Shown here: positions 14,490-29,337 of the stretch, one piece after another
Layout: each line of letters begins with the position of its first letter
Position numbering within the stretch: the stretch's first letter is position 1
Source of the DNA: Candidatus Omnitrophota bacterium
GTDB lineage: Bacteria; Ratteibacteria; UBA8468; B48-G9; JAFGKM01
Direction of reading: 5' to 3'
Length of the DNA: 64,000 nucleotides
Assembly: GCA_023819375.1 (NCBI GenBank)
Contig: JAMWDI010000004.1
Coordinates: 62,001-126,000 of the forward strand
Position numbers and translations under genes: made by a program
The notes under the pieces: generated by a model
Told to the model about the DNA's origin: nothing
Database searches by the model: none
The model's input: only the letters and a program-made list of their open reading frames with translations

Positions 14490-15548
14490 ATGTCAGACAA
14501 TAGGACAAAAAATAAAATTACAATTGTTGAAGTGGCAAAAAAAGCGGGTGTAAGTATTAAAACAGTTTCTCGTGTAATTAATAATATGCCATATGTCAGT
14601 GAAGAGACGAGAAAAAAGGTTTGGAAAGTTATTGAAGAATTAAATTATTTTCCAAGGATTGAGGGAAGGCAACTTGCTTTTTTGAAAAGAAATAATAATC
14701 TAAAAACAGGAAATATTGGTTGTCTTATATTTCCAACTTATAACAAATATTCAGAACCATTTTTTGCAGAACTTCTTGAAGAGGTTGATAAAGTTTTACT
14801 TGAATTTAACCTGCATAAATATTTTTTCCATACACTTTCGGAATTGAAAGATCCGTCTCTTTTTATAAAAATGATAAATCCAAATGTAATAGATGGATGT
14901 GTTATACTTGGGTCAGGAGAAAAATATAGGGAAGATATTATAAGAATATATAAAAGGATAAAAAATGTTGTAATTTTATGTGATTTTATTGATTGTGATG
15001 AAATTGCCTGTTTTTATCCAGATGGTATTAAAGGTGGATATATGGCAACAAATTATTTGATTTCTCTTGGACATAGAGTTATTGGATGTATTACTGGATA
15101 TTTAAATTGGCCTGAATATTCACAATTGAGGTTAAAAGGATATAAGAAAGCACTTGAAGACGCAGGGATATTATTTGATGTAAAACTTGTTGAGGAAGGG
15201 AAATATAGTATAGAAGGAGCTTCGCAGGCAGTAAAGAAATTAATAGAAAGAAATCCAGAAATGACAGCAATATTTGTTGTTTCAGATCCTATGGCTGTGG
15301 GTGTTTATAAAGGGCTTGCTGAAATAGGAAAAAGGATACCAGATGATATATCAGTAATAGGTTTTGACAATATTAAAATTGGAGAACATTTACATCCAAG
15401 TTTGACAACAATATCTGTAGATAAATATAGTTTGGCCAAAGAGGGAATAAAAGTATTAATTGACGAAATAAATACTGGCAATAAAACAGGAATGAAAGTG
15501 GCTTTTCCCGTTACATTGGTTGAAAGAGATTCTGTAAGAAAGATATAA
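14490..15548 (+). CDS. LacI/GalR family transcriptional regulator
   Basis: Regulator of 352 residues. The N-terminal helix-turn-helix (ITIVEVAKKAGVSIKTVSRVIN, seen in part) is followed by the hinge (GRQLAFLKRNN, with a leucine where LacI inserts one into the minor groove) and a periplasmic-binding-protein-like effector domain: SEPFFAELLEEVDK, HRVIGCITGY and ISVIGFDNIKIGEHLHPSLTTI. It should bind a sugar and control genes nearby; the glycan operon beginning 127 bases downstream is the obvious candidate, and the divergent pseudopilin unit a second one. It has its own strong promoter with almost no 5' leader. Confidence 0.92.
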   Translation: MSDNRTKNKITIVEVAKKAGVSIKTVSRVINNMPYVSEETRKKVWKVIEELNYFPRIEGRQLAFLKRNNNLKTGNIGCLIFPTYNKYSEPFFAELLEEVDKVLLEFNLHKYFFHTLSELKDPSLFIKMINPNVIDGCVILGSGEKYREDIIRIYKRIKNVVILCDFIDCDEIACFYPDGIKGGYMATNYLISLGHRVIGCITGYLNWPEYSQLRLKGYKKALEDAGILFDVKLVEEGKYSIEGASQAVKKLIERNPEMTAIFVVSDPMAVGVYKGLAEIGKRIPDDISVIGFDNIKIGEHLHPSLTTISVDKYSLAKEGIKVLIDEINTGNKTGMKVAFPVTLVERDSVRKI

Positions 15549-16414: not shown

Positions 16415-17962
16415 ATGATGAAAAGTTTAGTTTTTTTGGTAATTTGTGTGACTTTTTTGGATTTTTCATTTGGGGAAACAATATCTGTTGAATGGACAGG
16501 AAAAGATAATACTTCTCGTATTTTAGAAATTGAAACAGATCAACCTTTTAATGGAACATTAAAATCCTTATATTATGGAGAGAACAAATTAATTCGTGGT
16601 AGTAAGATTATTTTTGAAGAGAAAAAACTTTGGGAAAGTGAGGCTGATGATGCTATAAAAAATGTCAAATTTCAAAAATTAGAAAAATTTTTTTCTGAAT
16701 ATGCAAAAGTAATAATGACTGAATCTATAATTCAATGGGAAGAGAAGAAGATAAAAGTAAAACATTTCTTTTATGTCTTTGATGGAGATGATGGGCTTTA
16801 TTGTAGATATGTTCTTGAACCTGAAGGAAGTTTTGAATTAATAAGAATATGGAGAGTTGACCATTTTGATCATTTAGGAGAAGGATTGGTTAAAAAGAAT
16901 CATTTTAAAGATAAAAATCTTCAGGGATGGTCAGAATGGTCTTTTGAAGGAGCACCTTTTAGTTTATCTCAGATTTATATTAGTGTTCCTGGTTGGTATT
17001 CACCTTCTTATTGGAAGAATTGGACTGACTGGGATATAGACATCAGATATAAGGCAACACAACATAATATTCTTTATAATGAAAAAAAATTTCTCTTTGA
17101 TAATCCCATAAGATTTGATTTTGCATTTTTCCCTTCAAGTGATGATGACCCTTCTTCATCAGAAGCAAAAGGCAGTACATATTATGAGCAAGTAATTAAA
17201 AAGACAGGATATGGCCTGGATGCAATTAAAGGAAAAAATATAAAAGATATAATTTTTAGCAAAGGACATATAAAGATAACTGCACAAGATTTACCTTTTG
17301 AATTTGAAATAAAGTGTTTACCAGAAAATCAAGGGGTTTTTCTTTTTATTATAAGTGAGATGAGTAAAAAGCCAGAAGCAATATATATATTAAAAAATGG
17401 AAAAAAGGAAATGGTTTATAATTCCAGTGTTTTGGATATATGGAAAGATGAGAAAGGATATAATACTGCTTTCTTTTTAAAGACAGGAAGTTATAAGATA
17501 GTTGTAGAACCGGAAAAACCAGATGTTCAGATAAAACAAAATCCTAAGTATGTTGTTTTTTGTGGCAGTAATAATGATAAAGAATGGGATGAAGGAGAAA
17601 AATATGGTTGTGTAAAAGGCAAAGTTTATCTTGGATGGGCAACAAGTGCTCCTGGTGTAGTTGATTTTGAAAAAATTATAAGAGAAGATAGCGAGAAAGT
17701 AATTTATAGATTTACAGGATTTGATGAAAATAAGAATTACAAAGTTAGATTGGGGTTTTATAATGAAAATGATGAAAAGAGATTAAGAATAACAATTGGA
17801 AAGGTTTCTTTAGGAGATGTGGTTTTACCTGTGGAAAAGATAACATATTTTGAGAAAGAAATACCAAAAGAAGGGATTATAAATGGCATTATTGATCTCG
17901 TTATTGAAGTAATAAACGGAGCAAAAGCTCTTATCTCTAAAATATGGATTTTTGAAGAATGA
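16415..17962 (+). CDS. Secreted protein of unknown function, probable carbohydrate-binding beta domains
   Basis: A 515-residue protein I do not recognise. An N-terminal signal peptide (MMKSLVFLVICVTFLDFSFG) is clear. The body is rich in aromatic residues and predicted beta strands (HFDHLGEGL, GWSEWSFEG, WYSPSYWKNWTDWDIDIRY). Residues ~380-515 (CGSNNDKEWDEGEKYGCVKG, KNYKVRLGFYNENDEKRLRI, LVIEVINGAKALISKIWI) look like a galactose-binding/malectin-like sandwich, as found in sugar-binding modules. It lies between the prepilin gene and the giant glycosidase, so a role in binding or cleaving a glycan is plausible. No catalytic motif is identifiable. Confidence 0.7.
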   Translation: MMKSLVFLVICVTFLDFSFGETISVEWTGKDNTSRILEIETDQPFNGTLKSLYYGENKLIRGSKIIFEEKKLWESEADDAIKNVKFQKLEKFFSEYAKVIMTESIIQWEEKKIKVKHFFYVFDGDDGLYCRYVLEPEGSFELIRIWRVDHFDHLGEGLVKKNHFKDKNLQGWSEWSFEGAPFSLSQIYISVPGWYSPSYWKNWTDWDIDIRYKATQHNILYNEKKFLFDNPIRFDFAFFPSSDDDPSSSEAKGSTYYEQVIKKTGYGLDAIKGKNIKDIIFSKGHIKITAQDLPFEFEIKCLPENQGVFLFIISEMSKKPEAIYILKNGKKEMVYNSSVLDIWKDEKGYNTAFFLKTGSYKIVVEPEKPDVQIKQNPKYVVFCGSNNDKEWDEGEKYGCVKGKVYLGWATSAPGVVDFEKIIREDSEKVIYRFTGFDENKNYKVRLGFYNENDEKRLRITIGKVSLGDVVLPVEKITYFEKEIPKEGIINGIIDLVIEVINGAKALISKIWIFEE

Positions 17963-17975
17963 AAAGGAGACCCTA

Positions 17976-20900
17976 ATGAATAAAATAATGGTAAGTATAT
18001 ATTGTTTTTTCTCAATACTATACAATGTATGTTCCTATGGGGAAATAAGCATAAAAGAGGAATATGTTCTTACTTTCAATCCTTTAGAAAAAACACTCAA
18101 CCACTATGGGATAGAAATTCCATATGAAGAAACAAAAATTTCTTTTCCTGTAGAATATATGAAAATTGTTAATTTAGAAAATGGAGAAGAGTGTGATTTT
18201 CAGATTGAAGATAGGAATGTCAATGGTATTTTTGATGCAGGAGATATCCTTTACTTTATCTCTGACTTAAAACCTGGATATTCTCTTTTTAAAATATTAA
18301 GTTCGCCTGAAAAAAGAAATGTAAAGGAACTGTTATTTGCAAAATTAGAAGGAGAAAAGATTATAATTTCTGGAAATGGTTTTTCTGTTGTATTTTCCGG
18401 GAAAAGCGGTCTACCTGAAAAATATATAATGTATGACAAGGAAATATCTTTTTCTTCTGTGATTCGTGTATATGGGGTTACATCTGGAAGGATAAAAGGA
18501 ATAAACTTTAATGAGTTTAAAGGAGAAATAAATCAATTATCTGATTGTATAGTAAAAGTTGAAAAATATCCATTGCGTTCCAGAATAAATTTTAAAAAAG
18601 GAGAAATATCTGGTTATTTCTATGTTTATCCTGATGGAAAAATAGAAGGAAATATAAATGGTGATAAGAACATAATTACAGGAGTTATTGTTTTAAATAA
18701 TATTCCTCTTGAAAGAATAGAAGAAACACTTCTTGGTATGAATTCTGGTAGTATTTTTTCAAAACCAGCAAGATATATCTGTGGAGGAAGGTTTTTCTTT
18801 GGAGGAGTGAAGGGTAAAGGGGAAACTTTAGGCATAGGAATTGCACAGCCACATAAGGAGTTGGATAGACCCTATCCATGGATATGGATTCCTCATAAAG
18901 ACAGAGGTTTTGTTAATAATTCTACTTCTATTTGGTTGAACCATCTTCCTGGTGACAGATTTGTTATAATTCCTTTTACATCAAAAGAAGAAGTTAATAA
19001 AAAAGTTGAAGATTTAAGAGTAAATGTAAATGTATGGGTAGGAGAAAAACTTTCTACTATGTGGAATGAAGAAAAGGACTTCTTTAAAAAAGGGTTTGAT
19101 TACCTAAATAAAATAGGAAGCAATTTTACTCCACCTGATTTAAGTTCCTATTTCAATTTTAAGAATATAATTTCAGGATATAAAGAAATAGATAGATTGA
19201 TAGAAAAGTATATAGAAGAAGGCAAAAAAGAAACAACAAAGTTAGAAAAAGAAGGATGGGAAACAGTTGGAATAAAAATAGCGCTTGAATATGCAAAAAT
19301 TCTTTCCGGTATTGCAAAATTAGATAGATCTCTTGGAAGGATAGATAGGTATCATAAAAGGACACTTGAAGGTCTTAAAGAATTAACCTTTGCTTTTGAA
19401 AGAATAAAAAAGCAGATTCCAAAACAATTATTTGGAAAGAAAGCAGAGTATTTTCATGGGATGAATATATTTACTGCTTGTTATGCCAGACCTGATGGTT
19501 CTGATTATGGATATTGTGCGAATATTTATGAACCACTTCTTGAAGATGATTTTTGGAAAGCATTTGATATTGCTGATATAGAATATGTCCATTTAAATTT
19601 CACCTGGGACCGGCTTGAGCCAGAAGAAGGTATATATAATTTTTCTGAATTAGATAAATTTATGGAAATTTTAGCCAAACATAATAAAAAGGTTTATTTT
19701 CAAATAGGAGATAATATTTCTATAGGAATGGCACCAAAATGGGCAGTGAAGAAGTATCCAGAGTGGGTATATCGCGATGATAAAGGCAATTGGAGAGAAA
19801 GAGATGCTTTTGTTTGGGTATCTCCTGAATTGTTTGGAGAAACACCTGGATGGATGACGCATCTTCAAAAATTAGTTAATAAAATAGTGGAAAGATACAA
19901 GCCATATGAAAAAAATATTGCTGCCTGGGGTATATGGAATGAACCTGGTTTTAGGAATTATGGAAAAGATTTTTTATTTCAACAGGAACTTTTTTTAACT
20001 TGTTTCCGTAACTTCCTGAAAAAAAGATACAATTCAATTGAAGAATTAAATAGATACTGGGGTACTTCTTATAAATCTTTTGATGAAATAAAAAAACCAG
20101 AGTTTATTAAGGCGGAAATAAAAGATTCACTTTCTTTAAATGGAAAATGGTTATTTAAAATAGATCCAAAAGATGAAGGTGTATCTCAGAAATGGTATAC
20201 AGATAAGGTTAAAAAAGATAATTGGAGAACTATTGAAGTCCCTGGATTTTGGGAAACACAGATTTCTGAATATAAGAATTATGACGGTGTCGCCTGGTAT
20301 TGGAAAGAGATAAATATCCCAGAAAATCTTAAAAGATATTTTCTTGTGCTTAAGTTTGGTGGTGTAGATGATGATTGCACTGTTTATATTAATGGTGAAA
20401 AGGTATATGAAAATAAAGGTTACAATATACCCTTTGAAATACCAATCAGTAATTTTATTAAAGATGGGAAATTACAAATTGCTGTGAGAGTAGTAGACAC
20501 ATTCCAATTAGGTGGGATATGGAGAGATGTATTGATTGTTCCTGTAGGAATTGCTATTTCTTATTATGCATTTCCTGCACAAGCTACCGATTGGAATGAT
20601 TTTATAAATGAACAATTGGTTGGCTTCCTTGGTTTTTTCAATTCTGGTGTGCGAAAAATATCTTCTCTTCCTGTGGCTGAAAAAACAGGACAAGAAATAG
20701 ATAGGTTTTGTATGCTTTACAGTGCCGCAGATGAATTTTCAAAAGACAGTATATACTATGATATGGCTGCGTTTGATTTTTATAATCCTGTTAAAGAAAT
20801 AAATTGGCATGCAGATCTGTCAAGATGTGCACATAACAATAAAAAACCTATATGGATAGGAGAATATGGTGGATATACAGAGGACCATAAAGGACATTTA

Positions 20901-22001
20901 CGTATTTATGCAAAGGACATTCCACATACATCTTGGAGCGCTTTCTTACATGGTGTTAAAGGATTTTACCATTGGCTATGGACAGGTTATGGTGGGATGT
21001 CAGACCATATGGGTTCTCCAGAAGATGAGTTTATAGAGGCAGCAAAATTAAATGTATGGGGTAAAGTAGCAGGTGAACTCTTTTCAGCACAACCAGAAAG
21101 AAAAATTGCTATATTCTTTCCACATCTTTCTACACTTCTTGGAGATGAAGACACAATACGTTTAAGGTGGCAATCGCTTTATTATATGCTTAATGATATG
21201 AATGTTCCTATTGATTTTATTGATTGGAAACAAATTAGAGATGGTAAACTTTCTCAATATAAACTTTTGATCATTCCTTCAAGTCCATTTATAAGACAGG
21301 AAATTGTAGAAAAAATAAAAGAGTATGTAAAAAATGGTGGCAAAATTATTGCCTATTCTGATTTTGGTATATGGAATGAAAAAGGAACCATTTCAACACC
21401 ACCTTATCCTGGTTTTAACCTTTATGAAATTTTTGGGGCAATACTGAATATCAATACTTCTATGCTTGAAGAAGATACTGTAATTAAAAATACAGAAATA
21501 CCTGTTAAAAGTCGCCATATAATCGTCCCTATAGAAACAACACATGCAAATGTTTTTTGCGAAACAGAAAAAGGGTTACCATTAATTACTAAAGCCAAAT
21601 ATGGACAGGGAATTGCTTATCTATGTAGCTTAGATTTGGGCAAGTTATATGAAAATCTTTTATCAAATGATTCCAAAAAAGCAAAAGAATTTGTAGAATT
21701 TATATGGAAAATTTTGGACGAAAATAATGTTTCTCCCGAGATTAAATTATGGAGCCCTGGCATAGAAGCACAAGTTATAAAAAATGATCAGGCCTTATAT
21801 CTGGTAATAAATAATCGTCTTTCTTTTAGTTTTAATGTGAATTTAATGTTAAAGAGAAATATTATAGAAAGTGAATTTATTTATGATTTAATTTCTTGTG
21901 AAAAACATACTTTAACAAAAACAGGAGAAAATTATCTTTTGAAAACCACAGTTGCGGCAGGTAATGTCAGAATATTTTTTCTAAAGAAAATTAAAAAATG
22001 A
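17976..22001 (+). CDS. Giant secreted GH42-type beta-galactosidase-like glycosidase with inserted GH2-like sandwich domain
   Basis: A 1341-residue exported enzyme (signal peptide ~1-23). Residues ~25-330 form a beta-rich N-terminal region, ~360-480 a helical linker, and ~490-1035 a GH42-type barrel: FHGMNIF, HLNFTWDRLEPEEG, the acid/base Glu656 in WGIWNEPGF and the probable nucleophile Glu963 in PIWIGEYGG. Between them, at ~716-858, lies an extra sandwich like the GH2 sugar-binding domain (LNGKWLF, VPGFWETQ, VAWYWKEINIP, GGVDDDCTVYINGEKVYEN). Residues ~1042-1240 resemble the GH42 flavodoxin-like trimerisation domain (LLIIPSSPFIRQEIVEKI). ATG 17976 has AAAAGGAGA upstream; an in-frame TTG at 17952 lies inside the previous gene. 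Confidence 0.82.
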   Translation: MNKIMVSIYCFFSILYNVCSYGEISIKEEYVLTFNPLEKTLNHYGIEIPYEETKISFPVEYMKIVNLENGEECDFQIEDRNVNGIFDAGDILYFISDLKPGYSLFKILSSPEKRNVKELLFAKLEGEKIIISGNGFSVVFSGKSGLPEKYIMYDKEISFSSVIRVYGVTSGRIKGINFNEFKGEINQLSDCIVKVEKYPLRSRINFKKGEISGYFYVYPDGKIEGNINGDKNIITGVIVLNNIPLERIEETLLGMNSGSIFSKPARYICGGRFFFGGVKGKGETLGIGIAQPHKELDRPYPWIWIPHKDRGFVNNSTSIWLNHLPGDRFVIIPFTSKEEVNKKVEDLRVNVNVWVGEKLSTMWNEEKDFFKKGFDYLNKIGSNFTPPDLSSYFNFKNIISGYKEIDRLIEKYIEEGKKETTKLEKEGWETVGIKIALEYAKILSGIAKLDRSLGRIDRYHKRTLEGLKELTFAFERIKKQIPKQLFGKKAEYFHGMNIFTACYARPDGSDYGYCANIYEPLLEDDFWKAFDIADIEYVHLNFTWDRLEPEEGIYNFSELDKFMEILAKHNKKVYFQIGDNISIGMAPKWAVKKYPEWVYRDDKGNWRERDAFVWVSPELFGETPGWMTHLQKLVNKIVERYKPYEKNIAAWGIWNEPGFRNYGKDFLFQQELFLTCFRNFLKKRYNSIEELNRYWGTSYKSFDEIKKPEFIKAEIKDSLSLNGKWLFKIDPKDEGVSQKWYTDKVKKDNWRTIEVPGFWETQISEYKNYDGVAWYWKEINIPENLKRYFLVLKFGGVDDDCTVYINGEKVYENKGYNIPFEIPISNFIKDGKLQIAVRVVDTFQLGGIWRDVLIVPVGIAISYYAFPAQATDWNDFINEQLVGFLGFFNSGVRKISSLPVAEKTGQEIDRFCMLYSAADEFSKDSIYYDMAAFDFYNPVKEINWHADLSRCAHNNKKPIWIGEYGGYTEDHKGHLRIYAKDIPHTSWSAFLHGVKGFYHWLWTGYGGMSDHMGSPEDEFIEAAKLNVWGKVAGELFSAQPERKIAIFFPHLSTLLGDEDTIRLRWQSLYYMLNDMNVPIDFIDWKQIRDGKLSQYKLLIIPSSPFIRQEIVEKIKEYVKNGGKIIAYSDFGIWNEKGTISTPPYPGFNLYEIFGAILNINTSMLEEDTVIKNTEIPVKSRHIIVPIETTHANVFCETEKGLPLITKAKYGQGIAYLCSLDLGKLYENLLSNDSKKAKEFVEFIWKILDENNVSPEIKLWSPGIEAQVIKNDQALYLVINNRLSFSFNVNLMLKRNIIESEFIYDLISCEKHTLTKTGENYLLKTTVAAGNVRIFFLKKIKK

Positions 22002-24424: not shown

Positions 24425-26548
24425 ATGAATAAAGTTAGATATCATATCCCAGAGAAAATTTACTTTCCTTTTGTCTTAGGCAATGGCACTGATTCTGTTA
24501 TGGTAGATTATTCTGGTAGTATGCATTGTGATTCAGGGCATTTACATATAGAACAACATGAAGGAGCTATATGTTGTTGGGAGAAGACTACACATAGAAC
24601 AAGAGCAAGATTTATGGTTCCTTTAGTTCAATTTCCATATAGGATAGCTACTTTTGATGGTGAACTGTATGAGGTGGGTAATTTTAATCAAATTTTTGAC
24701 CCTTATACTGCAACACTTATTACAGAAATTGAAACAACAATTATTCGTATGCAAATAAAAACATTCCTTACAGATGAGGGACTTTATGTAGAAAGATATA
24801 AAATTTTATGGCTGGATGGAAAAAGAAAACCAGTTATTATTTTTATTTCTCGTAAACCACGATATACCCTTTGTAATTTAGTCATAAAATTTCCAGATAC
24901 ATATAAAATAATTTTCTCAAAATTTAAGGAAGATTTTATTGAGGGAGAATATTCTTTTGACGAAGTGAAAGGAAAGATATGTATGGCAGTGAAAGCCCCT
25001 GGTAAGAAGAAAAGAGTTGAGGTTTTTTCGGATGAAGGACATATAAAAATAGAAGGATTAGAAAAAAATGATTTTATTGAACGATATATTTCTGTTAAAG
25101 ACAATACTGAAACAGAAGAATATGAGAGAATCTGTAGAGAAAATATAGACAAAGCACTTTCAAAAAATTTTGAAGAAATATATAAAAAACATTCAAATAA
25201 TTGGATAAGATTTCATAGTCAAATAAAAGTAAAATTGCCTGATAGAGAAATTGAAGATATATATAGAAAAAGTTTATATCTTATTCGTGCTTCACAACAT
25301 CCAAACGGGTTCATTACAGAAGGACTTTCAAGTGAGTTTAAAGGTGGTGGATATATGTGTCAATGGGACATGCTTTTTGCTTGTCGAGCACTTATTACAT
25401 CAAATCAAAGAGAATGTGCTTTGAAATTGCTTGATTTTTATCATTATTCAGCCAATTATGCAAGAATATATGCCAGTCAATTAGGAAGATCAGGTGTATA
25501 TTTCCCTTGGATGACTAATTATAAGGGTGAAAGTTTATATTTTGAAAATGCCAAAGAACTAAGAAATATAGAAAAGTTTAATAATGGATGTATAGCAATG
25601 CAACTTTTTGATGTTTATAGATTTTGGGGTGACAAGGAATCTTTAAAAAAGAATTTACCTTTAATAAAAGAGATAGTGGATTTTTTAATTGAAGAAATGG
25701 TAATAGAAAAAGAAGGGGCATTAATAATAAAACCAAATGAAGGAGCAGATGAGAATATTGATAGAATTAATGATACAGCACATCTTCTTACACTTATTGA
25801 AGCACTAAAAGGTTATATAGAAGGATGTAAAGTGTTAAATATAGAATTGAATGAAAATTATGTGAGGATTTTGGAAAACTTGAAAAAAGGGCTAAGAAGA
25901 AACTATAAAGATGGAATTTTACTTCAGTATGAAGGAGATATGCTAAGACCAGTTTCTTCAGCAGAATTTACTTTTCAAATATTTTCTTTACCTGAAGGAA
26001 TAACTATTAAAAGCATAAAAAAAGCGTTGAAAGATAATCAGAGTGAATGGGGACTTACAAATTCAGGGACATATAGAAATCTTATATGGCCTTGGACAGA
26101 AAATCGTGCTGCAATTGCTTTTTCTATTGTTGATCCAAATATAACATATCAAAGGATAAAACATGTAATTAATTTTACAAGTAAGCATGGCATTTTCCCT
26201 GAAAAGATTAGACCTGATGGATACTGGATACTTTTTGGTTATTTAACAGCCCATTCTTCTTTTATATATGCTGTTAATTCTCTTCTTGTATCTGATAATG
26301 GAAAAAGGTTATTTATTGGAGTAGGATTTCCAGAAGAATGGAAAAATATAGCCTTTGAAAATATTTATACAACATCAGGTTATGGTGTAAGTTTTTCTTT
26401 GAAAAATGGAAGAATTAAGAAACTTGTAATAGAAAACTGCCGAGAGGATGAGAGAGAAATAACAATATATCTCCTTAATAAACATTTTGGTAAAGAACAT
26501 ATTATTTTTACACAGAGATTAAAACCCGGCAAAAATAAAATTTTTTAA
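24425..26548 (+). CDS. Putative six-hairpin (alpha/alpha)6 glycoside hydrolase
   Basis: A 707-residue protein without a signal peptide. The N-terminal ~250 residues are beta-rich; the rest is helical with elements typical of (alpha/alpha)6-barrel glycosidases of the GH65/GH95/GH63 type: NGFITEGLSSEFKGGGYMCQ followed by WDMLFACRALI, RSGVYFPWMTNYKGE, INDTAHLLTLIEALKGYIEG and FGYLTAHSSFIYAVNSLL, and a short C-terminal beta domain. Candidate acids are Glu in the TEGLSSEF stretch and in ALIIKPNEGADEN. I cannot assign a family. An AAAAAGGAG site precedes the ATG. It is the last gene of the operon and probably finishes degradation of imported oligosaccharides in the cytoplasm. Confidence 0.65.
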   Translation: MNKVRYHIPEKIYFPFVLGNGTDSVMVDYSGSMHCDSGHLHIEQHEGAICCWEKTTHRTRARFMVPLVQFPYRIATFDGELYEVGNFNQIFDPYTATLITEIETTIIRMQIKTFLTDEGLYVERYKILWLDGKRKPVIIFISRKPRYTLCNLVIKFPDTYKIIFSKFKEDFIEGEYSFDEVKGKICMAVKAPGKKKRVEVFSDEGHIKIEGLEKNDFIERYISVKDNTETEEYERICRENIDKALSKNFEEIYKKHSNNWIRFHSQIKVKLPDREIEDIYRKSLYLIRASQHPNGFITEGLSSEFKGGGYMCQWDMLFACRALITSNQRECALKLLDFYHYSANYARIYASQLGRSGVYFPWMTNYKGESLYFENAKELRNIEKFNNGCIAMQLFDVYRFWGDKESLKKNLPLIKEIVDFLIEEMVIEKEGALIIKPNEGADENIDRINDTAHLLTLIEALKGYIEGCKVLNIELNENYVRILENLKKGLRRNYKDGILLQYEGDMLRPVSSAEFTFQIFSLPEGITIKSIKKALKDNQSEWGLTNSGTYRNLIWPWTENRAAIAFSIVDPNITYQRIKHVINFTSKHGIFPEKIRPDGYWILFGYLTAHSSFIYAVNSLLVSDNGKRLFIGVGFPEEWKNIAFENIYTTSGYGVSFSLKNGRIKKLVIENCREDEREITIYLLNKHFGKEHIIFTQRLKPGKNKIF

Positions 26549-27435: not shown

Positions 27436-29337
27436 GTGTTTATTTTAAATTTACTTTTTTTCCTTTTAAATAGTTTTCTTCTTGCTGGAATTTTTGGAAT
27501 ATCTTCTTTCATAGAATTTATTTGTTCTTTCATAATATTTTTTTATTCACAAATTCTTACTTTTTCTATAATTCTTGGACTTTTAAAACTTCTTTATCCT
27601 CAATATCTTTTAATTTTTTCTGTTCTTTTATTTTTTTTAATTTTGCCTCATATTAAAAAATTTAAATTACCAGAAATAAAAATAATTCCCAAAAAAATTG
27701 CAATTGCTCTTTCATTTGTTATATCTTGCCATATTTTAAGGATAATAATCGGCCTTCCATTGCCTCCTTTAGAAACAGATGGACTTTTATATCATTTACC
27801 TTTTGCTGTTCATTATTACAAAACACATTCAGTTTCTTTGCCAAATCTTTATTTCACAGATATTGCAATGACCTATTATCCGATAGGAGGAGAAATTTTT
27901 TATTTTTTTTCACTTCTTTCAAATAAAGAATTTTTACTAAAATATACACAATTTCCTTTTCTAATTCTTGGTTCTTTTTCTTTGTTTTTGCTTTCAAAAT
28001 CTTTTGGTTTTTCTGATTTCCTTTCATTTTTTATTTCTTCCTGTTTTTCTCTTCTGAAACCTGTTTTATTTGAATCTTCTATGTGTTTTGTTGATTTGAT
28101 TATGGCTGCAACTTTTATTTCGACATTATATTTTTTAAGAAAAAATGAAAAAAAATATTTATCCTTTGCAATTTTGTCTTTATCTATTTTATTTTCAGTG
28201 AAAACATTATCTATTATTTTTGGGCTTTTAACAATACCATTCTTAATTCAAAAAAGAAAGGGTAAATACTCAAAATTTTTTTATGTTTCAATATTTCACT
28301 TTTTATTTTTCGGTCTATTCTCATATTGGAGAAACTTAATTTTAACAGGAAATCCTTTTTATCCAGCAGAAATAAAAATTGGGAAATTTATTTTATTTAA
28401 AGGAGCATATGAATATCCTGAAATTTCAATTTTGACAAAAATAAAAATGTTATCAAAAATTCTTGCTTTTTCTTCACTTCATATTGATCCATCTTTTAAT
28501 TTAAAAATAATTCTTCTGTTATTTTTTCTGATTTCTTTTGCCTTATCATTCAATAAAAAAGATATTTTTTTGTTTTATCTTATTTTTCCAGTTTCTATTT
28601 TTCTATATTGTTTTCTTATTCCACCACATTATTATCAAATAAGACATCTTTTGCCTGTTTATTGCATATTATCTATTTCTCTATTTCATCCATTTAAAAA
28701 GTGGGAATATTTCTGTATTCCTGTATTTCTGTATATATTTTTCTCATCTTTTAAAAATATATTTATTCCTAAAATTTTCATTGTATTTTTCATTTTTGTC
28801 ATTCCTGTTTATGTTGTATCACATTTTAAAAAAACTCTTCTTTATTTTATCTTGCTTTTAATAAGCCTTTCTTTTTTCATTTTTGAAATAGAAAAAACAA
28901 AATTCATCTATGAAAAAATAAAGTTTGAGTTTTGGAAAGTATTTTATGCAGAAGAGGGAAGAATTTGGGAGTTTATTCAAAGAAATTCAGGTAAAGGTAA
29001 GAATATTGCTTATGTTGGAAGTTTTTTTATATATCCTATTTATGGAGATAAAATTCAAAATAATCTTTTTTATCAGTCAATAAATTCAATTGATACACTT
29101 CCCATTTTTAAATATAGGAAAAAAATAAAATTTCCAGATGAGAATGTTGAAAATCTGTACAGGAATAATCCTAATTTCAATCTCTGGCTTTATGGTTTGA
29201 AAAAGAAGAAAGTTGAATGGATACTTGTTAAAAAGGATAAAGATTATATTGAGAAAAGATGGATTGAGGAAAATCCAGAATTATTTAGATGTATTTTTTC
29301 CAATAGTTATGCTGAAATTTATGAATTTCTTTTTTAA
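27436..29337 (+). CDS. Polytopic membrane protein resembling GT39/ArnT-type glycosyltransferases
   Basis: A 633-residue, very hydrophobic protein with about a dozen membrane segments and a C-terminal soluble domain (~500-633). The first loop contains PPLETDGLLYHLPFAVHYYKTH, shown in part, reminiscent of the Asp-containing catalytic loop of dolichyl/undecaprenyl-phosphate-dependent glycosyltransferases, followed by YPIGGEIFYFF. It should transfer a sugar from a lipid carrier on the outer face of the membrane, but the acceptor is unknown. Start is GTG at 27436 with no ribosome-binding site, so expression probably depends on coupling. Its stop codon overlaps the stop of apt on the other strand. 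Confidence 0.6.
   Translation: MFILNLLFFLLNSFLLAGIFGISSFIEFICSFIIFFYSQILTFSIILGLLKLLYPQYLLIFSVLLFFLILPHIKKFKLPEIKIIPKKIAIALSFVISCHILRIIIGLPLPPLETDGLLYHLPFAVHYYKTHSVSLPNLYFTDIAMTYYPIGGEIFYFFSLLSNKEFLLKYTQFPFLILGSFSLFLLSKSFGFSDFLSFFISSCFSLLKPVLFESSMCFVDLIMAATFISTLYFLRKNEKKYLSFAILSLSILFSVKTLSIIFGLLTIPFLIQKRKGKYSKFFYVSIFHFLFFGLFSYWRNLILTGNPFYPAEIKIGKFILFKGAYEYPEISILTKIKMLSKILAFSSLHIDPSFNLKIILLLFFLISFALSFNKKDIFLFYLIFPVSIFLYCFLIPPHYYQIRHLLPVYCILSISLFHPFKKWEYFCIPVFLYIFFSSFKNIFIPKIFIVFFIFVIPVYVVSHFKKTLLYFILLLISLSFFIFEIEKTKFIYEKIKFEFWKVFYAEEGRIWEFIQRNSGKGKNIAYVGSFFIYPIYGDKIQNNLFYQSINSIDTLPIFKYRKKIKFPDENVENLYRNNPNFNLWLYGLKKKKVEWILVKKDKDYIEKRWIEENPELFRCIFSNSYAEIYEFLF

Follow-up and report, generated by a model that had tools for sequence, protein, structure and literature searches.

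Within the window (the whole 64,000-nucleotide stretch of DNA from a Candidatus Omnitrophota bacterium that was analysed), a gene was identified in which a GH42-like barrel is interrupted, in frame and without loss of the barrel, by an insert between the two presumed catalytic glutamates. The split is not a product of chance. Sequence matches and predicted structures support the view that the insert is a complete GH2-type beta-sandwich and no part of the barrel.

Layout of the gene and the split in the barrel

The features of the gene are listed in Table 1. Residue numbers are counted from the TTG codon, and those of an earlier note on this DNA, counted from the ATG at 17976, are eight lower. 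This ATG (codon 9) is the likelier start and is followed by a stretch that resembles a signal peptide as judged by eye, and the encoded enzyme is probably secreted. For residues 31-495, about 465 amino acids after the signal-like stretch, no Pfam match was obtained, and nothing similar was found among the ORFs of fetched relatives.

Table 1. Features of the gene encoding the split barrel, with positions in the window.
Feature	Residues	Position	Strand	Basis or remark
Gene	1-1349	17952-22001	+	One uninterrupted ORF, 1349 codons counted from TTG
N-terminal region	31-495	18042..19436	+	Without assigned family
GH42-like barrel, first half, with acid/base Glu	496-720	19437..20111	+	PF02449, profile, alignment, fold
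Presumed acid/base, WNE motif	E664	19941..19943	+	E in 58/58 aligned GH42; equivalent to E160 of BiBga42A
Insert (149 residues), complete GH2 sugar-binding-type beta-sandwich as supported by modelling	721-869	20112..20558	+	Alignment gap, PF02837, PDB matches, model
GH42-like barrel, second half, with nucleophile	870-1073	20559..21170	+	GH42 profile resumes at residue 873
Presumed nucleophile	E971	20862..20864	+	E in 58/58 aligned GH42
GH42 trimerisation-type domain (Glyco_hydro_42M)	1074-1237	21171..21662	+	PF08532, E=3.3e-18

In the Pfam analysis, Glyco_hydro_42 (PF02449) was matched at residues 536-729 (profile 17-203, E=6.6e-31) in two stretches, the best of which ended at residue 729, and the barrel scored 108.4 bits against the curated cut-off of 21, a sequence match to GH42. 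Residues 495-1349 were aligned with 58 GH42 proteins from named genomes of many phyla of other bacteria (alignment A6). MAFFT misplaced the second half-barrel when few rows, added GH2N rows or half-barrels were supplied, and alignments A1, A3, A4 and A5 were dropped; A6, which holds GH42 rows only, gave a clean placement and was used. The columns of N663, E664 and E971 were matched in 58 of the 58 proteins, and the two glutamates correspond to the catalytic pair that had been named Glu656 and Glu963 in the earlier note. They are separated by 306 residues, compared with 149-166 (median 156) in the 58 GH42 proteins. The excess that had been reported from the sequence was thereby recovered, whereas the spacing of roughly 170 given for known GH42 enzymes was slightly too high. 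Residues 721-869 form a clean gap in all 58 proteins, and no nested case was found among these loci. The previously estimated borders, 20120-20550, were correct to within 8 bases.

When a GH42 profile built without this protein was run against it, the match was divided over residues 528-725 and 873-1230, and only three profile positions fell unmatched between the two pieces. After removal of the insert in silico, a single continuous match of 395.5 bits was obtained, compared with 142.4 and 232.5 bits for the two pieces. Since the match becomes continuous once the insert is taken out, a complete barrel was interrupted and almost nothing was lost at the site. The insert follows barrel strand 4, some 60 residues downstream of E664, and, counted along the printed alignment, it falls between the equivalents of P212 and F221 of BiBga42A.

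A model of the 855-residue core, for which 59 aligned sequences were used, reached a mean pLDDT of 69.5 and a pTM of 0.71. The barrel blocks were mostly of high confidence, and the insert region, which had no aligned relatives in this model, was of low confidence. In the structure search GH42 structures ranked first (best Z 32.8 over 588 residues, 2.9 A to 5e9a), and the glutamates lie on strands 4 and 7 of this GH42-fold barrel. The insert with its flanks was modelled separately with eight GH2N rows, which yielded a mostly beta structure (pLDDT 80.2, pTM 0.79) matching the N-domains of GH2 beta-glucuronidases with a Z of 19.8 over 147 residues. Its sequence matched Glyco_hydro_2_N (PF02837) at 728-848 (E=1.4e-19; 71.1 bits against a cut-off of 28) and PDB sequences at E=3e-15, and further matches were obtained to the ancillary-domain region of CE20-type esterases (chains 9ega, 7kmm and 9h4u). 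Both sequence and predicted fold identify the insert as a PF02837-type domain. Pfam, the gap in the alignment and the predicted fold are in agreement with the GH2-type jelly roll nested in the barrel that had been described before. The model revealed neither an insert belonging to the barrel, as far as the low confidence in this region allows, nor another pair of catalytic glutamates. The Ig-like domain (PF00703) and the barrel domain (PF02836) of GH2 were both absent from the Pfam results for the protein, which does not have the make-up of a GH2 enzyme.

Kinship of the module and rarity of the arrangement

A tree built from 59 GH2N-type domains placed the insert in a group of 16 members (15 accessory modules and the insert itself; support 89/91), and none of the examined hosts in this group uses the domain as a GH2 N-domain. 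The hosts comprise a metallophosphatase, DUF4838 proteins, a beta-helix protein, an MGH1-like glycosidase, a glucoamylase-like protein, a GH13 amylase, a GH2-like protein with an extra C-terminal copy, a tandem pair and two SASA/CE20-type esterases, on one of which Pfam was run. The C-terminal module of another protein from the same genome (L060) also belongs to the group. True GH2 N-domains of the same phylum fell elsewhere in the tree. As read from the sequences, most accessory copies have a short last loop ending in GGIW or similar, and this loop is longer in GH2 N-domains. Judged by the module tree, the insert is kin to mobile accessory modules rather than to the N-domains of GH2 enzymes. 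An origin from a GH2 enzyme is not favoured by the tree, even though the fold search ranked GH2 N-domains first; they would be expected to lead that ranking because they are the solved structures and because the same kind of rows was used in the modelling. The 'sugar-binding domain' of GH2 thus behaves as a mobile accessory module, and the accessory GH2N-type group, which stands apart from the GH2 N-domains, could merit a CBM family of its own.

The protein of the same genome that carries the related module (L060, 1486-3171; G000:C9:201959-202423) is 562 amino acids long, and its sole Pfam matches are to this C-terminal GH2N-type module. GH2N-type modules on unrelated hosts were further observed at loci L006, L008, L026, L048, L051, L077, L151, L153, L154, L156 and L162.

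In GC, GC3 and codon fit, the insert resembles the rest of the gene. Given this lack of compositional contrast, it was not recently acquired from a genome whose composition differs. A recent foreign insertion was considered and rejected on these grounds, and no flanking direct repeat of more than 8 bases was present.

No match spanning barrel and insert in nested order was found in 35 genomes of the same phylum or in 386 genomes sampled across bacteria, and a whole-protein pattern scan of genome contigs yielded no close relative. About 60 matches resulted when these 386 genomes were searched with a GH42 profile. Spans were computed for 22 of them, including the present protein, and the other 21 exceed their model length by at most 53 residues, compared with 144 here. 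By inspection of spans, no nested case was detected on plasmids or in three further phyla, two with GH42 matches and one without. A GH42-like barrel with a nested GH2N domain is a rarity within cultured and binned genomes, which falls short of uniqueness; splitting of matches by HMMER and BLAST could hide rare nested ones.

It is extremely improbable that two genes were falsely joined during assembly or annotation. The lack of a close full-length relative in the 386 genomes and in the contig scan would be in line with such an artefact, but the frame is intact on both sides of the insert, the GH42 profile restarts almost exactly at its stopping point and the insert has the composition of the rest of the gene. 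Moreover, a false join would have had to occur twice, independently and each time precisely at a domain border. This explanation was rejected based on profile continuity and composition.

Active site and family placement of the barrel

The catalytic core of GH42 is retained (R617, N663, E664, D942, Y944 and E971), and the enzyme would be a retaining GH42-like glycoside hydrolase that acts through the two glutamates. In BiBga42A, galactose is bound by W326, E366 and H369 (PMC10688820), and conservation at these positions was not found. The Glu after strand 8 (E in 58/58 GH42 proteins; E366 of BiBga42A by motif) and the Trp after the nucleophile (W in 51/58; W326 by motif) are gapped here. The region of H369 is deleted and no E..H motif is present after strand 8, where the alignment may shift locally. 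An Arg of 57/58 GH42 proteins is replaced by T1011, and a loop Trp that occurs in 58/58 (W200 by motif) is deleted together with four neighbours.

In the barrel tree the protein was placed outside the 25-row canonical GH42 clade (support 99), on a long branch beside divergent copies of its own phylum, and long branches make its exact place unsure. By sequence, the barrel is a divergent GH42-like one outside canonical GH42. Since the galactose-binding positions are lost and the barrel lies outside the canonical clade, a label as beta-galactosidase is unsafe, and the enzyme is probably not a beta-galactosidase. This bears on annotation, as domain tools tend to label such proteins GH2 or beta-galactosidase. 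The barrel may be related to GH148, whose founding member EngU is known here by its published description.

The gene is part of a same-strand run that follows a LacI-type regulator (14490-15548) and also comprises a pilin-like gene (by eye), a 515-aa protein of unassigned family, an M14-type peptidase, a likely GNAT acetyltransferase (by eye) and a GH65/GH95-like protein. These surroundings fit a sugar-regulated catabolic operon and name no substrate. The GH65/GH95-like protein (24425-26548) scored only weakly against known families (E=1e-12 with the kojibiose hydrolase model, far short of its cut-off) and is probably a divergent member encoded in the same operon. A 633-aa protein without Pfam match is encoded at 27436-29337. 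Another GH42-like protein of the genome (L002, G000:C3:97024-97452) carries a CBM9-type domain at its N-terminus and matches GH42 only in part (24 bits). At L033-L041 and other loci of the phylum, many large proteins (1100-1600 aa) with weak barrel and GH42M similarity were observed, which constitute an expanded group that is apparently little described.

Possible roles of the module and comparison with known systems

We propose that the loop following barrel strand 4 received, in frame, a mobile accessory module of the GH2N type, which stands just before the Phe position (F221 of BiBga42A) and would take over from the lost Trp as wall or lid of an active site. In the BiBga42A trimer, W200 and F221 are contributed by the neighbouring subunit and lie in the loop that is split here, and it is through this loop that GH42 subunits complete each other's active sites (PMC10688820). 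The module could cover the active site of its own or of the neighbouring subunit and might add sugar contacts beyond subsite -1. Specificity would then shift away from terminal galactose, towards a glycan that is larger or branched, comparable to the CE20 esterases, in which a GH2N-type domain forms part of the cleft. A wall or lid would be the most likely role because the Trp of the canonical loop is deleted and the module adjoins the Phe position; module and barrel were modelled separately, and their mutual placement is not given by the models. The proposal as a whole, in which a captured module serves as lid or wall and the enzyme is redirected to a larger or branched glycan, has in our view about an even chance of being correct. 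The position in the loop and the precedents make it plausible that the module sits at the rim of the active site and holds a branched or polymeric substrate, as was suggested in the earlier note. It is unlikely that the captured module has taken the place of the GH42 inter-subunit loop and remodelled the active site, so that a trimeric scaffold of galactosidase type gave rise to a new GH-A subfamily with a new specificity, possibly independent of the trimer.

Alternatively, the module might be an ordinary carbohydrate-binding tether, which binds polysaccharide or positions the enzyme on a surface, faces away from the cleft and does not shape the active site. We consider this somewhat unlikely, although there is a precedent in the GH26 beta-mannanase BcWH2_GH26. 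There, too, a binding module is intercalated in a clan GH-A catalytic domain, albeit of another GH family and another CBM family; the internal CBM112 appears to point away from the cleft of the catalytic domain, and its deletion led to no significant change in kinetic parameters (PMC13357471). Close kin of the present module are N- or C-terminal on GH13, metallophosphatase, DUF4838 and glucoamylase-like proteins, where they can hardly complete an active site. However, the loop that took up the module extends to an active site in trimers of GH42, and the lost conserved loop and substrate-binding positions suggest a rebuilt site and not a simple add-on.

We regard it as quite unlikely that the module is mainly structural, replacing the trimer-contact loop and altering or blocking trimerisation without binding sugar. 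GH2 N-domains often serve as scaffold, which would be in line with such a role. The replaced loop holds the trimer contacts W200 and F221 of BiBga42A (PMC10688820), and the Trp is deleted here; but the GH42M trimerisation domain is kept with a good score, and kin of the module are spread as separate accessories on carbohydrate-active proteins.

The preferred reading, a module serving as wall or lid, has its nearest counterparts in two systems. In EngU, a GH148 beta-glucanase, a CBM4 that binds the substrate of the enzyme is nested in the same loop at the same barrel position (PMC5725463). In both proteins a clan GH-A barrel (with local GH42 similarity in EngU) is interrupted by a sugar-binding beta-sandwich, which follows strand 4 and separates the catalytic glutamates. 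The nested module is a CBM4 there and a GH2N domain (PF02837) here, where no CBM4 match was found in the protein among Pfam hits up to E=1. Further, the C-terminus of EngU is described as without known similarity (PMC5725463), whereas GH42M follows the barrel here. GH148 is defined in CAZy by the catalytic domain alone, and the nested CBM4 is a trait of its founding member. In CE20 acetylesterases (Fl8CE20_II 9H4U, PpCE20_II 9EGA, XacXaeA 7KMM), a PF02837-type sandwich is likewise nested in the catalytic domain and helps to form the active-site cleft (PMC12313940). Direct matches link the insert to these chains, and its clade includes two CE20-type copies, but the host there is an SGNH esterase and here a GH42-like TIM-barrel glycosidase without an SGNH domain.

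Canonical GH42 enzymes (BiBga42A, 8ibr-8ibt; T. thermophilus A4, 1kwg) share with the protein the barrel, the trimerisation domain, both catalytic glutamates and the equivalents of R121, N159, D285 and Y287. In contrast, they contain no nested domain and keep W200, W326, E366 and H369, which are absent here. The N-domains of GH2 beta-glucuronidases (4jkm, 3k46) resemble the insert in fold (Z 19-20), but in GH2 they precede an Ig-like domain and a GH2 barrel, and the insert is not among them in the module tree.

The enzyme offers a clean test case for the role of internal modules, which have been proposed to shape specificity in CE20 but seem only to tether in GH26. Nested sugar-binding modules have already been published, and the protein is a new combination of known elements: a GH42-like barrel hosting GH2N is a third pairing of host and module for nested sandwiches of this sort, besides GH148 with CBM4 and CE20 with GH2N.
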